NCBI GenBank assembly: GCA_020444075.1
Contig: JAHLLR010000024.1
Location: forward strand, 1-64,000
Length of the DNA stretch: 64,000 bases
Source of the DNA: Deltaproteobacteria bacterium
GTDB taxonomy: Bacteria > Desulfobacterota > Desulfobacteria > Desulfobacterales > Desulfosarcinaceae
Direction: 5' to 3'
The notes under the pieces are model-generated. The model was given only the letters and a program-made list of their open reading frames with translations, had not been told where the DNA came from and ran no database searches. Below, piece after piece: positions 29,688 to 43,884 of this stretch. Made by a program: the position numbers and the translations under genes. How positions within the stretch are numbered: position 1 is the first letter of the stretch; each line of letters begins with the position of its first letter.

Positions 29688-30485
29688 ATGATCGCACAAG
29701 ACACCATCGTATTATGGAACCAGCCGGCAGCGCCGGGCTATTACCGGATGGGCCTGGCCTGTGCCACCGGTTTCGACACCGCCAGGCCCGGACAGTTCGT
29801 CATGGTCCGCACCGGCACCGAAGCCACCCCGCTGTTGCGCCGGCCCTTTTCCTTGTTGGGTTTAATCCGGGAAGGGGACCGGGTGACCGGGATCGAGATC
29901 CTGTTTAAAGTCGTGGGCAAGGGAACCCAACGGTTGTCCCGTTGCCGGGAAGGCGACCGGTTGTCCGTCATCGGACCGCTGGGGAATGCCTTTCTGGTGC
30001 CCGAAACCTGCCGTCAGCTGATTCTCGTGGCCGGTGGGGTCGGCGTGCCTCCCATCCGCTTTCTGGCCCAGTCGATGCTGGAGCGGGAGGGTGGCTTCAG
30101 CCGTTGCGTGGTATTCGTCGGTGGCCGGACCAAGGACGATCTGGTCTGCATCACCGAATTCGATCTGCCCGGATTTTTACTGGATGTATCGACGGATGAC
30201 GGCAGCCAAGGGAATCAGGGGATGGTAACCCGCAGTCTGGAAAAGGCATTGGATGCCGGTCCGGCGGATCTTATCTGTGCCTGCGGCCCGTCGGGGATGC
30301 TCAAGGCGGTTTCCGTCATAGCATTAGAGCGCGGTATTCCCTGCCAGGTTTCCATCGAGGCCATGATGGCCTGCGGAATGGGTGCTTGTCTGGGGTGTGC
30401 CGTAAAATTGCAGGACGACGAAACCCGCTACCGGCACGTCTGCGTGGACGGTCCGGTTTTTGATGCTCACCGGCTCGCCTGGTGA
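29688..30485 (+). CDS. dihydroorotate dehydrogenase electron transfer subunit (PyrK-like)
   Basis: Iron-sulfur flavoprotein of the ferredoxin-NADP reductase superfamily, 265 residues from ATG 29688. FAD site LLRRPFSLLG; NAD site VAGGVGVPPIRFLA; C-terminal [2Fe-2S] cysteines in MACGMGACLGC and YRHVCVDG. In type 1B dihydroorotate dehydrogenases PyrK passes electrons from PyrD to NAD. No pyrD lies nearby, so an alternative redox partner is possible. An in-frame ATG at 29658 inside pgeF would add ten residues; 29688, 4 nt after the pgeF stop, is preferred. Confidence 0.83.
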   Translation: MIAQDTIVLWNQPAAPGYYRMGLACATGFDTARPGQFVMVRTGTEATPLLRRPFSLLGLIREGDRVTGIEILFKVVGKGTQRLSRCREGDRLSVIGPLGNAFLVPETCRQLILVAGGVGVPPIRFLAQSMLEREGGFSRCVVFVGGRTKDDLVCITEFDLPGFLLDVSTDDGSQGNQGMVTRSLEKALDAGPADLICACGPSGMLKAVSVIALERGIPCQVSIEAMMACGMGACLGCAVKLQDDETRYRHVCVDGPVFDAHRLAW

Positions 30486-36349: not shown

Positions 36350-37012
36350 TATCTGCTTGGTCCATTTCCGTTGGGTTTAAAAATCCTGCTATCATACTTA
36401 GCCGCTCCGGGTTTGTAAATTCATTTCCATTTATCCCGGCATTCAAATCCCCTCCCTTTTGCCGCCTGACCAGGGCCCAGAATCAAACCAGGGCAAGGGC
36501 GCCGGAGGATGCTCCTGGCGCCTTCGTGTATTATCGTATCAGCACGGTCTGCGACGCATCCGGCGGGCCAGCCAGTCTTTACCGGAATAAAAGTTAAAAA
36601 AAACGAAAATAAGAGCAAAACAGAAAAAAACGAAGAAAAACGGAGTTTACCAGATTGTTGACACTTTGTTGATAACTCCCGATCTGCTTAAAATGCTTAT
36701 GGAAAAATCGCGGGTTTGAAAAACCTTGTATTTCGAAGCAGTTGCTGGGCAAAAATACGATAACTAACAGAAATAAAAGTAAAAAAAAATCTATGTGAGC
36801 ATCTTGTTAGCAAATTGATTAACCGACTGTCTTCCAGATTGACTTGGAACATCCTATTCTGTAAATAACTCGCCAGTCGCTGAATCTTGCGGCTACCTCT
36901 CTGAAAATCTCTAATAATTAACCAAAAGCTGCATATTTTAGACCAGTAGTTGGCTGTTTCGACAAAGCGGCAAAAAAAATTTAAACGTTGCTGAAGGGAA
37001 TTTATTTTTTAA
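36350..37012. other. AT-rich gene-free region upstream of the DnaA-like gene
   Basis: 663 nt with no convincing gene. Short frames on both strands at 36340-36618 have no family resemblance or ribosome-binding site. The left third is GC-rich and contains a strong hairpin (GGCGCC...GGAG/CTCC...GGCGCC, about 36498-36521). From about 36590 the sequence is strikingly A/T-rich with purine-rich runs on the + strand. TTGTTGATAA (36668-36677) and TTGTTAGCAA (36804-36813) resemble distorted DnaA boxes, but no exact TTATCCACA-type 9-mer is present. It must at least hold promoters for pdxA (minus) and the DnaA-like gene (plus). Confidence 0.6.
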
Positions 37013-38353
37013 ATGGACCAAATTTGGACGTCAGTGAAATCGCTGCTCAAGGAAAAAATTCCCGGCCACAGTTATCGAATGTGGATTGAACCCATCGTAT
37101 TTAGCGAAAATGAAAACGGCGCCATCGTACTGTCCTGCCCCAATCTTTTTTCAAAAAAGCGGATTGCCGACAATTATGGTCAAATGATCGAAGATGCCGT
37201 CTCCACGGCGGCAGGCAGGGCCTTCAAGGTTCGCCTAATCGTCGGGCCGTGCCAAGCTGCGGAATGCAAAGAAAAAAAACAGGACCGGCAGATGAAACTG
37301 CCGGATATCGATACGCCCATCCATAGCGGTCGACTGCTCAGAAAAGACTACACCTTCGATCAGTTCGTCGTTGGAAAAAACAGCGATTTCGCATACTCTG
37401 CGGCACTGTCACTGGCAGCGCGCAACCAGGGAAATCAGAACGCCCTTTATCTGCTTTCGAAAACCGGCCTTGGAAAAAGCCACCTCTCCCAAGCGGTGGG
37501 GCACCACATCTTCCAGACATTTCCCAATGAACGGGTCTATTATATCACGGCCGAAGATTTCATGAATGAAATGACCGACTCCTATCGGAGCAACAATATT
37601 CATCGTTTCAAAGAAAAATACCGCCAGAACTGCGACGTTCTGCTGCTGGAGGATGTTCACTTTCTGAGCGGGAAAAGCGGCACTCAAGAGGAGTTGTCCA
37701 ATACGCTGGAGTCGTTAATGAATGCCAATAAAAAAATCATTTACTCCAGCAGCTACCTGCCTTCGGATATCCCCAAACTTAACGATAAACTCAAATCGCG
37801 GCTCTGTTGCGGCCTGATTTCGAAAATCGATGCCCCTGATTACAAGACCCGTCTTCGGATACTTAAACAAACGGCGGTTTCCAGTGGATACACCCTTCCC
37901 GAAGAGGTTATGCAATATCTGGCCTCCGAACTGACCGAAGACGTAAGGCAACTGAAAAGCGGGTTTATCGGTGTCGCCGCCAAGGCATCGCTGCTAGGAT
38001 CGGATGTGGATTTAAACCTTGCCCGGAGCATCGTAAAAAACATCGTCACCTCACGAGAAGGAATCACCCTCGATTCTATCAAGCGGCTTGTCTGTAAATA
38101 CTACAACGTCAGCATTGCTGACATCATCTCCCCCTCCCGACGGCAATCCATCGTCCGGCCGCGGCAAGTGGCCATGTACCTCTCCCGCCAGTACACCGAC
38201 CACTCTCTTCAAACCATCGGCAAGAGTTTCAACCGGTATCATGCAACCACCCTGCATGCCCTGAAGGCAGTGGAAAAGGGCGTCAAGGAAAATGGTCCCT
38301 TTCAGAAACACGTCGAGTTCCTGTCCGAACGTTTGGAAAAAGGAAAGATCTGA
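37013..38353 (+). CDS. divergent DnaA-family protein (replication initiator paralog)
   Basis: 446 residues with all four DnaA domains: domain I (1-78), a short linker, AAA+ domain (about 110-345) and a helix-turn-helix domain IV (350-446). The Walker A region is SKTGLGKS (149-156), with Ser for the usual first Gly. Walker B is LLLEDVHF. The arginine finger (R263) and sensor II arginine (R312) are kept. In the DnaA-box-contacting loop the usual RDHTT reads RYHAT (408-412). dnaN, recF and gyrB are absent. It is most likely a second DnaA with changed nucleotide and DNA recognition, but a lineage-typical sole DnaA cannot be excluded. Confidence 0.85.
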   Translation: MDQIWTSVKSLLKEKIPGHSYRMWIEPIVFSENENGAIVLSCPNLFSKKRIADNYGQMIEDAVSTAAGRAFKVRLIVGPCQAAECKEKKQDRQMKLPDIDTPIHSGRLLRKDYTFDQFVVGKNSDFAYSAALSLAARNQGNQNALYLLSKTGLGKSHLSQAVGHHIFQTFPNERVYYITAEDFMNEMTDSYRSNNIHRFKEKYRQNCDVLLLEDVHFLSGKSGTQEELSNTLESLMNANKKIIYSSSYLPSDIPKLNDKLKSRLCCGLISKIDAPDYKTRLRILKQTAVSSGYTLPEEVMQYLASELTEDVRQLKSGFIGVAAKASLLGSDVDLNLARSIVKNIVTSREGITLDSIKRLVCKYYNVSIADIISPSRRQSIVRPRQVAMYLSRQYTDHSLQTIGKSFNRYHATTLHALKAVEKGVKENGPFQKHVEFLSERLEKGKI

Positions 38354-38368
38354 ATCGGCAGGAAAACA

Positions 38369-39760
38369 ATGGCGATCAATCCTGACTTTCTGGAACACCT
38401 GGAACGCATGGTTGGTAGACCCTATTTTTCCGCCCATCGTGAAGATCTGGTCTGTTACGGTTATGATGCCACTGCCGCCCTTTATGTTCCCGATGCAGTC
38501 GTCTTTCCGGCGTCGGCACGAGAGGTGTCGCAGATCATGAAACTTGCCGCCGATTTCCGAATCCCCGTGATTCCGAGGGGGGGGGGGTCCGGCATGACCG
38601 GCGGCGCCCTGGCCGTCAAGGGCGGCGTTGTCGTTGTCTTCAACCGCATGAACCGGGTCGTTGAGATCGACGAGGAAAATCTCATTGCCCGTGTTCAACC
38701 GGGGGTGGTTACCGCCGAGTTTCAGAATCAGGTGAAACGCCGCGGGCTGTTTTACCCGCCGGATCCTTCCAGCGCCAGCATTTCCACCATCGGCGGCAAC
38801 CTGGCCGAGTGCGCCGGTGGCCCGAAGGCAGTCAAATACGGCGTTACCCGGGACTATGTGCTGGGGCTTGAAGCAGTGCTGCCGACTGGAGAAATCGTCA
38901 AGACCGGGGTGTGCACAGCCAAAGGGGTGGTCGGATACGATCTCACCCGGCTCATCGTGGGATCCGAAGGAACCCTGGCCCTGATTACCGAGGCAACCCT
39001 AAAACTGCTGCCGCTGCCTGAAAGTGTAATTACCATGACGGTGGCCTTTGGCAGTATGAACAGGGCCGCCCATGCGGTTTCTCAAATTATTCGCAGCCAT
39101 GTTGTGCCCCGGACGATCGAATTCATGGATAATGCCTCCATTCGTCTGGCGGAAGATTATCTGCATGTGGGACTCCCGGTGGACGCTGGTGCTCTGCTGA
39201 TCATGGAGGTTGATGGAAGACGGCAGGAAATAGGTGGATTGGCACACACACTGGAAGATCTGAGCCGGCACCTCGGCGCGGTTTCGGTCACCGTGGCTGA
39301 AACCGAAGAACAGGCGCAGCGGCTGTGGCAGGCCAGAAAAGCCATTTCACCGGCGCTGTTCAAACTGGCCCCCCACAAGATCAACGAGGATATCGTGGTC
39401 CCCCGAAGCCGAGTGCCTGATCTGGTAGCCAAGATCGACGGTCTCAGGCGCGAGACCGGCCTGACCATGGTGGCTTTCGGCCATGCCGGTGACGGCAATA
39501 TCCATTTTAACATCATGCTGGACAAATCCGATCAGACCGAACTGGAAAAAGCCAATCGCGCCGTTGACGCCCTTTTCGACACCACCCTGGCTCTGGGCGG
39601 GACCATCTCGGGAGAACACGGGGTGGGTATAACCAAAGCCCCCTATTTTCGGAAAGAGGTCAGTGATGAGGCGATGTCGCTGATGCTGCGCATCAAACAA
39701 GCTTTTGATCCGCTGGGATTGTTGAATCCTGGAAAGATTTTTCCTGAGCCGATCGATTAG
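38369..39760 (+). CDS. FAD-binding oxidoreductase, GlcD/D-lactate dehydrogenase type
   Basis: 463-residue VAO-family flavoprotein oxidising a 2-hydroxy acid such as glycolate or D-lactate. The FAD-binding PCMH domain has IPRGGGSGMTGGALAV and GGNLAECAGGPKAVKYG. The C-terminal cap has FGHAGDGNIHFNIM and GGTISGEHGVGITKAPY. The usual iron-sulfur partner (GlcF/LutA-type) is not adjacent, so the electron acceptor is unknown. ATG at 38369, 15 nt after the DnaA-like gene, suggests cotranscription. The FAD motif is encoded across an uninterrupted run of 11 G. Confidence 0.9.
   Translation: MAINPDFLEHLERMVGRPYFSAHREDLVCYGYDATAALYVPDAVVFPASAREVSQIMKLAADFRIPVIPRGGGSGMTGGALAVKGGVVVVFNRMNRVVEIDEENLIARVQPGVVTAEFQNQVKRRGLFYPPDPSSASISTIGGNLAECAGGPKAVKYGVTRDYVLGLEAVLPTGEIVKTGVCTAKGVVGYDLTRLIVGSEGTLALITEATLKLLPLPESVITMTVAFGSMNRAAHAVSQIIRSHVVPRTIEFMDNASIRLAEDYLHVGLPVDAGALLIMEVDGRRQEIGGLAHTLEDLSRHLGAVSVTVAETEEQAQRLWQARKAISPALFKLAPHKINEDIVVPRSRVPDLVAKIDGLRRETGLTMVAFGHAGDGNIHFNIMLDKSDQTELEKANRAVDALFDTTLALGGTISGEHGVGITKAPYFRKEVSDEAMSLMLRIKQAFDPLGLLNPGKIFPEPID
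38577..38587 (+). repeat. poly-G tract of 11 within the FAD-binding motif
   Basis: Eleven consecutive G encode the end of Arg plus Gly-Gly-Gly in IPRGGGSG of the GlcD-type enzyme. The present length keeps the frame open. A gain or loss of one base would truncate the protein after about 80 residues. Confidence 0.95.
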
Positions 39761-40885: not shown

Positions 40886-42526
40886 TCAGGAGTTGTTCCC
40901 GTAAAGGTGTTCCACGGCGGCCTCCATTTTTTCCGACAGGGGCTTCAGCGTCGATCGGTTTAATGCACTGACCGCGATCCCATCTAAACTTTGAATCAGA
41001 TGGTCGCGGATTTCGGAATCCACCAGGTCCATTTTATTGAGGACCCGTATCGTGGGTATGCTGCACAGGTTCAGTTCAGCGAGGATGGTTTCAACAGAAC
41101 GGATCTGGTCCGGGTGGCGCGGATTGCTGATGTCAATGATGTGCAGCAGCAAGTCGGCATTTTCCAACTCTTCCAGCGTGGCTCTGAAAGCGGCCATCAA
41201 CTCTTTGGGCAGATCCCGGATAAACCCCACGGTATCGGTGATGATCACCTCGATGTCCCTGGGAAACCGCAGGCGCCGGCTGGAGGGGTCCAGGGTGGCA
41301 AACAGCTTGTTTTCGGCCAGAACCCTGCTTTGGGTCAACTGGTTGAGCAGGGTTGATTTTCCCGCATTGGTATAGCCGATGATGGAGATGATGGGCAGGC
41401 CCTTCTTGCTTCGTCGGCTTCGCTGCTGGCTGCGGTTTTTTTGAACCGTGGCTACCGCCTGCTCAAGGCGCCTAATGCGGTCTCTGGCCCGTCTCCGGCT
41501 GATTTCAAGGCGGGTTTCTCCCGGACCGCGCCCGCCGATGCCGCCTGTCAGGCGAGACATGGCGGTGTCCTTAGTGACCAGTCGGGGAAGGATGTATTTC
41601 AACTGGGCCAGTTCCACCTGAAGTTTACCCTCCCGGGTCTGAGCCCGCTGGGCGAAAATATCCAGGATCAGCTGCGTCCGGTCGATCACTTTAATTTCAG
41701 TGCGGTCGGTAATGGAGCGGATCTGGGAAGGATTGAGTTCCTGGTCGAAGATGATCAATGTGGCACCCCGGTGAAGCGCCATGATGGACAGTTCGTCCAG
41801 CTTGCCGCTTCCCATGAGAAAACGGGGATTGGCTTTTTTACGTTGCTGCAAAACGGTATCGATAATGCTGATATTGGCAGTGCGGGTCAATTCCTTCAAC
41901 TCATCCAGTGAATCAACGGCATCTTTTCGGGATCCGGTAAAAACACTGACCAGCAGGGCGCGTTCCGACCCTGCCTGGCTGGCCGTATCCGTCTTCTTGC
42001 GGGACAATTCGGCTTCGAGCGCCTGAATCATGTCAATGCAGTCGATTTCCGGCCGGTAAGGCGGGATCGGATCCATGATCTGGTAAGGGCTCGATTCGCT
42101 TCCTCCCGGAAGGATGTGGGCCCAGTGGATGGCTTCCGGCGCACCGGTTTCAGTCATGGTGATGACTGCCATGAGATCTAATCGAAGGAGAGCCAGGTCG
42201 GTCAGGTCGTCCTGGGTGAGGGGACTTTCGGTCAGATGCGTGTGGACGCATCTGAGCCCCCGCAGACGGTCCGGTGCCAGCCGGTAATCTTTCAGATCGG
42301 GGATAATAATGCGGTCCACTTCCCCTATCAGGATGTGAGCAATCTTTCCGCTGCGATCGATAAGCAGGCCGATCTGTCGGCTGGTCTCGGCCGAGAGGGC
42401 GCATAGATCTCGGCACAACTCGTGGGAGACGATGGCCTGGGGGGGGACCCGTCGGTGGCTGATATTTTCCAACCGCTTGATTTGGCTGGCTTTAAGCCCT
42501 AACCGGTTGCCGAAGATCTCTTTCAT
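40886..42526 (-). CDS. hflX: GTPase HflX
   Basis: Ribosome-associated GTPase that splits stalled or stressed ribosomes. 546 residues: a long N-terminal HflX domain including GGRGPGETRLEISRRRARDR, then the G domain with G1 GYTNAGKSTLLNQL, G3 DTVGFIRDLP and G4 NKMD. About 120 residues longer than E. coli HflX because of an extra N-terminal segment (first ~190 residues), a variant known in several phyla. It overlaps the end of dnaB by 4 nt, so translation is coupled. Confidence 0.93.
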   Translation of the reverse strand: MKEIFGNRLGLKASQIKRLENISHRRVPPQAIVSHELCRDLCALSAETSRQIGLLIDRSGKIAHILIGEVDRIIIPDLKDYRLAPDRLRGLRCVHTHLTESPLTQDDLTDLALLRLDLMAVITMTETGAPEAIHWAHILPGGSESSPYQIMDPIPPYRPEIDCIDMIQALEAELSRKKTDTASQAGSERALLVSVFTGSRKDAVDSLDELKELTRTANISIIDTVLQQRKKANPRFLMGSGKLDELSIMALHRGATLIIFDQELNPSQIRSITDRTEIKVIDRTQLILDIFAQRAQTREGKLQVELAQLKYILPRLVTKDTAMSRLTGGIGGRGPGETRLEISRRRARDRIRRLEQAVATVQKNRSQQRSRRSKKGLPIISIIGYTNAGKSTLLNQLTQSRVLAENKLFATLDPSSRRLRFPRDIEVIITDTVGFIRDLPKELMAAFRATLEELENADLLLHIIDISNPRHPDQIRSVETILAELNLCSIPTIRVLNKMDLVDSEIRDHLIQSLDGIAVSALNRSTLKPLSEKMEAAVEHLYGNNS

Positions 42527-43884
42527 TCAGTGGCCAGGTTTTCGAACCGGGTGTAAGATTTCAAAAAGGCCAGGGGAGCCATGCCGGTGGGGCCGTTTCG
42601 CTGTTTTGCCAGAATGATTTCCGCCGTGCCCCTGTGGGGGCTGTTTTCATCCCGGTTGTATACTTCATCCCGGTAGATGAAGGCCACCAGGTCGGCATCC
42701 TGCTCCAGGGCACCGGATTCTCTCAGGTCTGACAATTGAGGGCGTTTGTCGCTTCTTTCCTCCAGTTTCCGGTTGAGCTGGGACAGTGCGATGACGGGTA
42801 TGTTCAGTTCCTTGGCCAGAATTTTCAGAGAACGGGAGATGTCTGAGATTTCAAGATCCCGCCGTTCGATATTGGCGTTGCCCCGCATGAGTTGAAGATA
42901 GTCGATGATGATCATGCCCAGGCCCTTGTCCATTTTCATGCGCATGGATTTGGTCCGAATGGACGTGGTAGAAATATCCGGCGAATCATCGATAAAAAGG
43001 GGGGCTTCGGTGAGCCGGCCGGCAGCGTCAGTGATCCGGTTCCAGTCTTCCTTATTCAAGAAACCGCTGCGGATGCGGGATGAATCCACCCGGGCCTCGG
43101 CGCACAGCATACGCAAGGAGAGCTGCTCTTTTGACATTTCAAGGGAAAAAATGGCTACCGGCACCCCGCCTTCGATGGCTGCATTGCGGGCCATATTCAG
43201 GGCAAAGGCCGTTTTTCCCATGGCCGGGCGGGCGGCCAGGATGATCAAATCGGAATTTTGAAATCCAGAGGTTAGGGCGTCCAGTTTTGAAAAGCCGGTG
43301 GTGACACCGGTCACCAGGGCCCGGTTGCCCTGCCGCTCCTCTAACGCGTCGATGTTGGCTTCGATTATCTTGCTGATCGGAAAAAAGGCCTGCTTGGTCT
43401 TTCCTTCGGAAAGTTCGAAAATGGCGCTCTGGGCGAATTCGATGACGTTTTCGACCTCTCCGCGGTCTTCGAAACACCGGTTGGAGATGGCGTTGGAGCG
43501 TTCGATGAGACGTCTTAAAATGGCTTTGTCGTGAATGATCCGTGCATAGTGGTGTGCATTGACCGCCATGGGCACGGCATCCACCAGCCGCGCCAGGTAG
43601 GCGGCGCCGCCGATTTTTTCCAACTCGTCCTTTTCCCTTAGAATATTGCTCAAGGTCACCAGATCGACCGGTTCGCTCTTGGCATACAGCGTCTCTATGG
43701 CGGCAAAGGTGATTTTATGCGCAGTCTTGTAAAAATCATCGGCGGACAGGATTTCGAGAATGTCGATGAGCGTGCTGTTATCGATCAGGATGGCACTGAG
43801 AATGGATTCTTCGGCCTCGATGCTCTGGGGCGGGAGCCTATGGAATGCGGGGTCTTTGGGTGCCGAATGAAGGGTCTCGGGCAT
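42523..43884 (-). CDS. dnaB: replicative DNA helicase
   Basis: Hexameric 5'-3' helicase at the replication fork. N-terminal domain begins PPQSIEAEESILSAIL; RecA-like domain has Walker A AARPAMGKTAFALNMARNAA and the H4 region SDLRESGALEQDADLVAFIYRD. Normal length of 453 residues. It follows rplI in the order rpsF-rpsR-DUF2232-rplI-dnaB, a widespread arrangement coupling translation and replication genes. The 172-nt gap between rplI and dnaB contains short GC-rich hairpins. Confidence 0.97.
   Translation of the reverse strand: MPETLHSAPKDPAFHRLPPQSIEAEESILSAILIDNSTLIDILEILSADDFYKTAHKITFAAIETLYAKSEPVDLVTLSNILREKDELEKIGGAAYLARLVDAVPMAVNAHHYARIIHDKAILRRLIERSNAISNRCFEDRGEVENVIEFAQSAIFELSEGKTKQAFFPISKIIEANIDALEERQGNRALVTGVTTGFSKLDALTSGFQNSDLIILAARPAMGKTAFALNMARNAAIEGGVPVAIFSLEMSKEQLSLRMLCAEARVDSSRIRSGFLNKEDWNRITDAAGRLTEAPLFIDDSPDISTTSIRTKSMRMKMDKGLGMIIIDYLQLMRGNANIERRDLEISDISRSLKILAKELNIPVIALSQLNRKLEERSDKRPQLSDLRESGALEQDADLVAFIYRDEVYNRDENSPHRGTAEIILAKQRNGPTGMAPLAFLKSYTRFENLATE

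Follow-up and report, generated by a model that had tools for sequence, protein, structure and literature searches.

The dnaA gene in the 64,000 nucleotides of Deltaproteobacteria DNA analysed here (contig JAHLLR010000024.1, in the following the window) probably encodes the DnaA that initiates chromosome replication in a Desulfosarcina-like bacterium of the Desulfobacterales and would act in trans on an origin (oriC) on the dnaN side by means of boxes of the form TTATN(A/G)ACA. The protein falls into a clade of DnaA sequences with serine or alanine at the first position of Walker A, for which the name S-type was coined here. Computation shows that it is the sole copy found, that its residues are order-wide and its clade distinct, that dnaA and dnaN are separated, that the GC skew switches near dnaN and that boxes altered at position 6 are enriched. 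From the sequences, we infer that this DnaA binds the boxes, unwinds the origin, loads the helicase and regulates its own gene.

The dnaA gene and its surroundings

The gene, its domains and its neighbourhood in the window comprise the following features:

36350..37012, + strand: pdxA-dnaA intergenic region, AT-rich, with elements conserved in the order
36667..36675, - strand: predicted DnaA box TTATCAACA, 346 bases 5' of dnaA, a position shared with L173 and L175 of the genus
37013..38353, + strand: dnaA, 446 amino acids, ATG start, the sole DnaA found in the draft genome
37019..37204, + strand: domain I, DnaA_N, residues 3-64 (Pfam)
37337..37819, + strand: domain III AAA+, Bac_DnaA, residues 109-269 (Pfam)
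37457..37480, + strand: Walker A SKTGLGKS, residues 149-156, with S149 in place of the first G
37649..37654, + strand: Walker B E213-D214, corresponding to E. coli D235-D236 (alignment)
37751..37753, + strand: sensor I position S247, corresponding to E. coli D269 (alignment)
38072..38272, + strand: domain IV, Bac_DnaA_C, DnaA-box-binding, residues 354-420 (Pfam)
38234..38248, + strand: contact loop R408-Y409-H410-A411-T412, corresponding to E. coli R432-D433-H434-T435-T436
38369..39760, + strand: GlcD-like FAD-linked oxidase, the gene after dnaA, a pair also present in other families of the phylum

The domains DnaA_N, Bac_DnaA and Bac_DnaA_C all scored above their Pfam cut-offs and the whole protein matched the DnaA model TIGR00362 with 421.7 bits (cut-off 343.9), which confirms the original prediction that all DnaA domains are present. 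The closest sequence match among solved structures was 8btg (E 2.5e-84), which we take to be the DnaA of B. subtilis. An identity as Hda was ruled out, as the Hda model scored 87.3 bits where 194.8 are required and domains I and IV are present. All 61 plasmid records matching the protein showed less than 60% identity, with at most 35.9% among the 15 matches listed.

The gene following dnaA reached 480 bits with TIGR00387, below the cut-off of 567.9, and dnaN of the same genome was found on a separate contig (G000:C93), where it adjoins gyrB. The predicted position of dnaA beside a GlcD-type gene and not beside dnaN is thus correct. The gene for the replicative helicase, dnaB, is located 4 kb downstream of dnaA (window 42523-43884, - strand). 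A scan of the + strand upstream of dnaA for sigma-70-like promoters found none, and an Rfam search returned nothing besides one tRNA. A conserved word, GGTTTGACA, occurs upstream of dnaA in 34 of 77 regions from the order and is possibly a promoter -35 element.

Residues of the nucleotide pocket and the contact loop

Residues were mapped by alignment with E. coli K-12 DnaA. Domains I, III and IV, the Walker lysine (K178=K155), the Arg finger (R285=R263), sensor II (R334=R312) and the equivalents of R399 (R376) and H434 (H410) are shared with TIGR00362, E. coli K-12 DnaA and B. subtilis DnaA (8btg); S156 and D214 are likewise kept. In contrast to these references, six residues are replaced, the contact loop is one residue shorter and the gene is not beside dnaN. 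Three of the replacements had been proposed before and were borne out by the alignment, namely the first Walker A glycine (G172=S149), D433=Y409 and T435=A411. Three more concern the nucleotide site: the Walker B aspartate (D235=E213), the sensor I aspartate (D269=S247) and the box VII arginine (R281=K259).

In the canonical set, G at Walker A position 1, D in Walker B and D in sensor I were present in 35 of 35 sequences, compared to S149, E213 and S247 in the window DnaA. The equivalents of K155, the Arg finger and sensor II (K, R, R) were kept in all 23 aligned sequences from the order. Altered positions were also found in the H and B motifs for binding of single-stranded DNA, with T188 and G223 in the window DnaA; T and G each occur at these positions in 4 of the 23 order members, the own sequence included.

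In the contact loop, the canonical triad D-H-T/S is replaced by Y409-H410-A411. The structure 2z4r, presumably the DnaA of Thermotoga maritima, shares with the window DnaA that no extra residue is present in the FNR-x-H loop, but its loop residues FNRSHPV are different. The DnaA box of Thermotoga maritima also differs from the E. coli box.

The three pocket changes S149, E213 and S247 suggest an ATP handling unlike that of E. coli. According to a part of PMC5742627, sensor 1 of E. coli DnaA helps in the very tight binding of ATP and ADP, and R281 represses the ATPase. Since the equivalents of both are lost in the window DnaA, a nucleotide switch that is looser or timed differently could be the consequence.

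Copy number and distribution in the Desulfobacterales

With 5,588,591 bases in 173 contigs, the draft is 95.75% complete; it yielded a single Bac_DnaA match, though a second dnaA could have been overlooked. Two further matches to Bac_DnaA_C were rejected as IS200-like (Y1) transposases ending in a DnaA_C-like helix-turn-helix. These genes with a PF08299-like C-terminus lie at L032:69-1070 and L033:1444-2352 on contigs C34 and C50.

The order set comprised 60 genomes including the present one, of which 58 showed some Bac_DnaA match and 56 yielded a DnaA (that of G029 being cut by a contig end), with none from G019, G027, G028 and G034. All 56 sequences carry Y-H in the contact loop (55 YHA, one YHG); the first residue of Walker A is S in 54 of them and A in two. 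No second full-length DnaA was found in the 60 genomes; the other PF00308 matches were weak (21 to 50 bits) and covered a partial profile, one of them being the other end of the cut DnaA of G029. For G034, which is 98% complete, no Bac_DnaA match was obtained though dnaN is present, probably due to a gap in the draft.

In a scan of GTDB contigs with named records, 506 relatives were confirmed, and the best 80 loci, which partially overlap with the 56 sequences, were kept. Y-H was present in all of these 80 (77 FNRYHAT and one each of FNRYHGT, FNRYHST and YKRYHAT), with S 74, A 5 and G 1 at Walker A position 1. Their titles include Desulfosarcina, Desulfatitalea, Candidatus Desulfatibia and Candidatus Desulfaltia, and many are MAGs labelled Desulfobacterales, Desulfobacteraceae or Deltaproteobacteria. 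Among 296 genomes of the phylum, a DNA word encoding FNRYH(A/G)T was found in 11 of 13 from the order compared to 3 of 283 others, and the two order genomes without this word, G176 (RMHAT) and G238 (YNRYHAT), still encode an S-type DnaA.

Since the changes recur across the order, they do not arise from chance; the substitutions of the window DnaA are standard in the Desulfobacterales. The prediction of a second initiator or a DnaA-derived regulator was consequently not upheld, as the gene is the sole dnaA found in the draft and its substitutions are those of the lineage.

Separation of dnaA and dnaN

Synteny was scored within loci of a few kilobases. While dnaN adjoins dnaA in all 30 top-scoring canonical loci, this arrangement was seen in none of the 56 genomes of the order set, none of the 80 named loci and none of the 26 S-type loci from a set of 30 phylum genomes (four of the 26 belonging to the order). 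The remaining four loci of this phylum set do contain dnaN and are canonical-like (L270, L271, L272) or odd (L285). The latter, G124:C260, encodes a DnaA with an aberrant P-loop, SKFSSGKT, which is neither canonical nor S-type. In the dnaN loci of the order, gyrB was present and dnaA absent in 38 of 38 cases, some genomes being counted twice.

A strict rule that canonical residues imply linkage to dnaN was rejected: true for the 30 top scorers, it is broken by L301 (G140:C3) and L306 (G111:C2). G140 and G111 contain two DnaA copies each with mostly canonical residues, one linked to dnaN and the other, L301 or L306, away from it.

A GlcD-like gene directly follows dnaA in 19 of 52 order genomes (four more were too short to tell), in 34 of 74 named loci (six too short) and in six S-type loci from outside the order (L275, L279, L283, L289, L296, L297). 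Since the pair also occurs outside the order, this gene order is probably ancient, even if frequently disrupted. At the other locus, dnaN is followed by gyrB, and an RdgC-like gene precedes dnaN in two listed Desulfosarcina genomes. In the present genome the RdgC-like gene reached 25.1 bits (cut-off 25). In both genomes (L148:6956-8147 on the own contig C93, and L150) it is divided between two neighbouring ORFs; in the own genome, the first alone matches RdgC in Pfam.

The S-type clade and genomes with two copies

DnaA sequences were taken from 30 genomes of the phylum, 26 of them outside the order; these were mostly picked for low DnaA scores and therefore do not represent the phylum evenly. 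The S-type pocket is characterised by S or A for the first G of Walker A, E for D in Walker B and loss of the sensor I D, together with a retained Arg finger and sensor II. Accordingly, in the 24 S-type sequences from outside the order, the first Walker A residue is S in 14, A in 9 and G in 1. Walker B starts with E in 22 of them and with D in 2, and the sensor I D is missing from all. Their contact loop is also one residue shorter, and the place of D433 is occupied by D, N, S, T, H, K, R or Q.

In a tree of 45 sequences, 27 S-type sequences including the window DnaA were monophyletic (UFBoot 100). This tree leaves out 17 order members, 19 canonical sequences and six long or redundant ones (L277, L285, L287, L297, L303, L304), E. 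coli is its sole outgroup, and support at the deep nodes is low (about 50 to 75). A FastTree analysis of 87 sequences gave an S-type clade of 46 with a support of 0.908 and L277 just outside.

G071 and G185 each contain a canonical-like and an S-type copy, and each kind pairs across both genomes (100 and 100), which places the split between canonical and S-type DnaA before these genera. G096 contains an S-type copy plus a very divergent copy linked to dnaN. The very divergent second DnaAs next to an S-type copy, L303 (G096:C2, linked to dnaN) and L304 (G240:C128), possibly represent a decaying former main initiator. One part of the second-initiator prediction is thereby retained in modified form: the clade is distinct from the dnaN-linked DnaA and both kinds occur in some other genomes, but not in the present one.

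Genomes such as G071 and G185, with one dnaN-linked copy and the S-type copy elsewhere, or G096 and G240 with their very divergent second copy, could be taken to mean that the window gene, too, accompanies a canonical dnaA next to dnaN and serves as a second initiator or as a regulator derived from DnaA. Nonetheless, this is highly improbable, since the own genome shows no second Bac_DnaA, the 60 genomes of the order set no second full-length DnaA, and the 38 dnaN loci of the order no adjacent dnaA.

A part of PMC3080875 that gives counts without residues, synteny or boxes lists two dnaA genes for Desulfovibrio, Desulfohalobium, Desulfomicrobium and Lawsonia. Several two-copy genomes of the phylum contain an S-type copy, and one might guess that G096 and G240 belong to this group. 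Unlike these genera as counted there, the examined Desulfobacterales yielded the S-type copy alone.

A tentative history, to which slightly less than an even chance is given, would be that the canonical initiator linked to dnaN gave way to an old second DnaA clade, leaving the whole order with a box carrying a purine at position 6, an origin still at dnaN and a pocket without sensor I and the first Walker B D. The pairing of the G071 and G185 copies by kind, with the canonical-like ones at the normal dnaN locus, fits such an old duplication with differential loss. The same finding speaks against a plain vertical divergence of a gene that moved, in which the dnaN-linked copies of the two-copy genomes originate from horizontal transfer. 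This explanation is rather unlikely, although it would agree with the sole outgroup and the weak deep nodes of the tree and with the mostly canonical second copies L301 and L306, whose position away from dnaN indicates that dnaA copies have been gained or have moved outside the S-type as well.

Position of the origin

In many bacteria the origin is located upstream of dnaA. In the closed relatives G003, G005, G008 and G039, the distance between dnaN and dnaA round the circle amounts to 1.3 to 2.8 Mb. For G003, G008 and G039, a two-arc model was fitted to 20 samples of 20 kb per genome. The best fit placed dnaN within the interval of the minus-to-plus switch in all three genomes, and the switch did not fall at dnaA in any of the five best fits per genome. 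The skew was clear in G039 and weak in G003 and G008, where no 20 kb sample exceeded 0.06 and the runner-up fits were close (0.324 vs 0.315 and 0.351 vs 0.338). Neighbouring intervals overlap by one sample, so that dnaN of G003 is also contained in the next interval, ranked third.

Within the window, no lasting change of the skew sign was observed at dnaA. Near dnaN, the sign flips in the own contig C93 as well as in G001, G005 and G008, and in C93 the gene direction flips at the same place. The chromosome records NZ_AP021874.1 and NZ_AP021875.1 (Desulfosarcina alkanivorans and D. widdelii) start at dnaA and have dnaN 2.7 to 2.8 Mb off round the circle; for NZ_AP021874.1 the skew puts the origin near dnaN.

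An origin upstream of dnaA with a misleading skew would be in line with the weak skew of G003 and G008 and with the 700 bp upstream of the gene, where TTATCAACA/TTATTAACA sites and an AT-rich stretch are among the conserved elements. It is nevertheless quite improbable, given the missing skew change in the window, the fits of the three closed relatives and an enrichment of boxes upstream of dnaN that is at least as high. The GC-skew check thus does not support the window locus as an origin.

The DnaA box

Upstream of dnaA, the word TTATNNACA in 77 regions from the order showed A 97, C 7, G 9 and T 4 at position 6, compared to expected numbers of A 6.0, C 2.5, G 2.8 and T 4.5. In 30 canonical regions of the phylum, the values were A 15, C 27, G 0 and T 0 (expected 0.7, 0.4, 0.4 and 0.4). 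With one genome per family, the order retained A 22, C 4, G 2 and T 4 (30 families) and the canonical set A 9 and C 16 (17 families), with a Fisher p of 5e-4 for A vs C; since sites within a genome and in related genomes are not independent, p values serve as guides. C6 boxes upstream of dnaA were found in 3 of the 30 order families. The commonest bases at positions 1-4 and 7-9 are those of the E. coli box, and position 6 alone departs from it. An A at this position is not specific for the order, as some occur in canonical genomes.

Upstream of dnaN, TTATNNACA in 28 genomes (11,056 bp) showed A 29, G 12, C 3 and T 1 at position 6 (expected 1.4, 0.5, 0.6 and 1.1). Of the 30 dnaN loci, one with too little upstream DNA and one with an error in its coordinates (2,589 bases) were dropped. 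In 800 kb of G003 and G039 taken for comparison, the background counts were A 31, G 23, C 7 and T 5; purines are thus commoner at position 6 there too, at far lower density than upstream of dnaN. In the own genome, boxes are located at -190 (TTATAGACA), -173 (TTATTAACA) and -112 (TTATCAACC) from dnaN. No TTATNNAC(A/C/G) site was present in 7 of the 28 regions, including G039 with the clearest skew.

The boxes form no dense arrays, mostly with a few sites per region, and exact scans of the examined pieces for TTATNCACA and TTATYAACA gave at most 2 per 500 bp. The word TGTTRATAAC had 11, 16, 10 and 5 matches in four genomes, compared to 10, 10, 13 and 4 for a reversed-pattern control, and showed no clusters; the word alone is therefore no origin marker.

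Altogether, these counts support TTATN(A/G)ACA rather than TTATNCACA as the likely box upstream of dnaA and dnaN. The altered recognition sequence of the original prediction is in this respect backed by box statistics at two unlinked loci, but it could not be tied to the D-to-Y change. In S-type genomes from outside the order that keep D433, the sites upstream of dnaN showed A 7 and C 2 (10 genomes, two of them without the H434 equivalent), so that Y409 as the sole cause was rejected. The corresponding genomes without D433 gave A 2 and C 1 (8 genomes), and eight further dnaN regions without a DnaA sequence, kept outside this comparison, A 1, C 4 and T 2. A part of PMC8235120 links D433 to base 7, not to base 6. 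The shift may instead be tied to the clade, to T435A or to the shorter loop, the numbers being too small to choose.

The few sites per region without dense arrays, and a shift that Y409 does not explain, could also indicate that TTATN(A/G)ACA is recognised by another regulator of dnaA and dnaN, with DnaA still acting on the canonical box. This is regarded as unlikely, since the word equals the DnaA box except for position 6 and recurs at both classic DnaA targets, where canonical boxes are scarce (as seen for C6 at dnaA). In Cyanothece, TTATCAACA was put forward as a DnaA box (PMC4674748). A lineage-specific box preference is described for epsilonproteobacterial DnaA in a part of PMC5043019, where it is discussed via helix 5 residues (435, 438-439); in contrast to the lineage of the window, in which position 6 changes, the fifth base is fixed as T there and the H. 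pylori consensus keeps C6.

Proposed mechanism and implications

In the favoured explanation, DnaA would be made at an S-type dnaA locus, often linked to glcD, that lies away from the origin. The putative oriC would be situated in the intergenic region between the rdgC-like gene and dnaN, in the own genome at about 30145-30372 of G000:C93. There, DnaA is predicted to bind TTATN(A/G)ACA boxes, to oligomerise through the retained Arg finger R263, to open AT-rich DNA and to load DnaB. Autoregulation could result from binding to the box that lies 346 bases 5' of dnaA.

Among the papers listed by full-text literature searches, with most subscription journals and all preprints outside their scope, none treats the S-type residues, the separation from dnaN or the box shift. 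DnaA is usually regarded as strongly conserved, and origin finders rely on linkage to dnaA and on the box TTATCCACA. Allowing one mismatch in the box, as done in PMC4403523, admits TTATCAACA and excludes TTATTAACA. Since the order departs in gene position, pocket and box, its origins may be missed or misplaced. If the canonical initiator was indeed displaced, the ATP/ADP switch may differ from that of E. coli. The genomes with two copies represent a natural test of the replacement of an essential initiator and of a joint change of a protein and its binding site.
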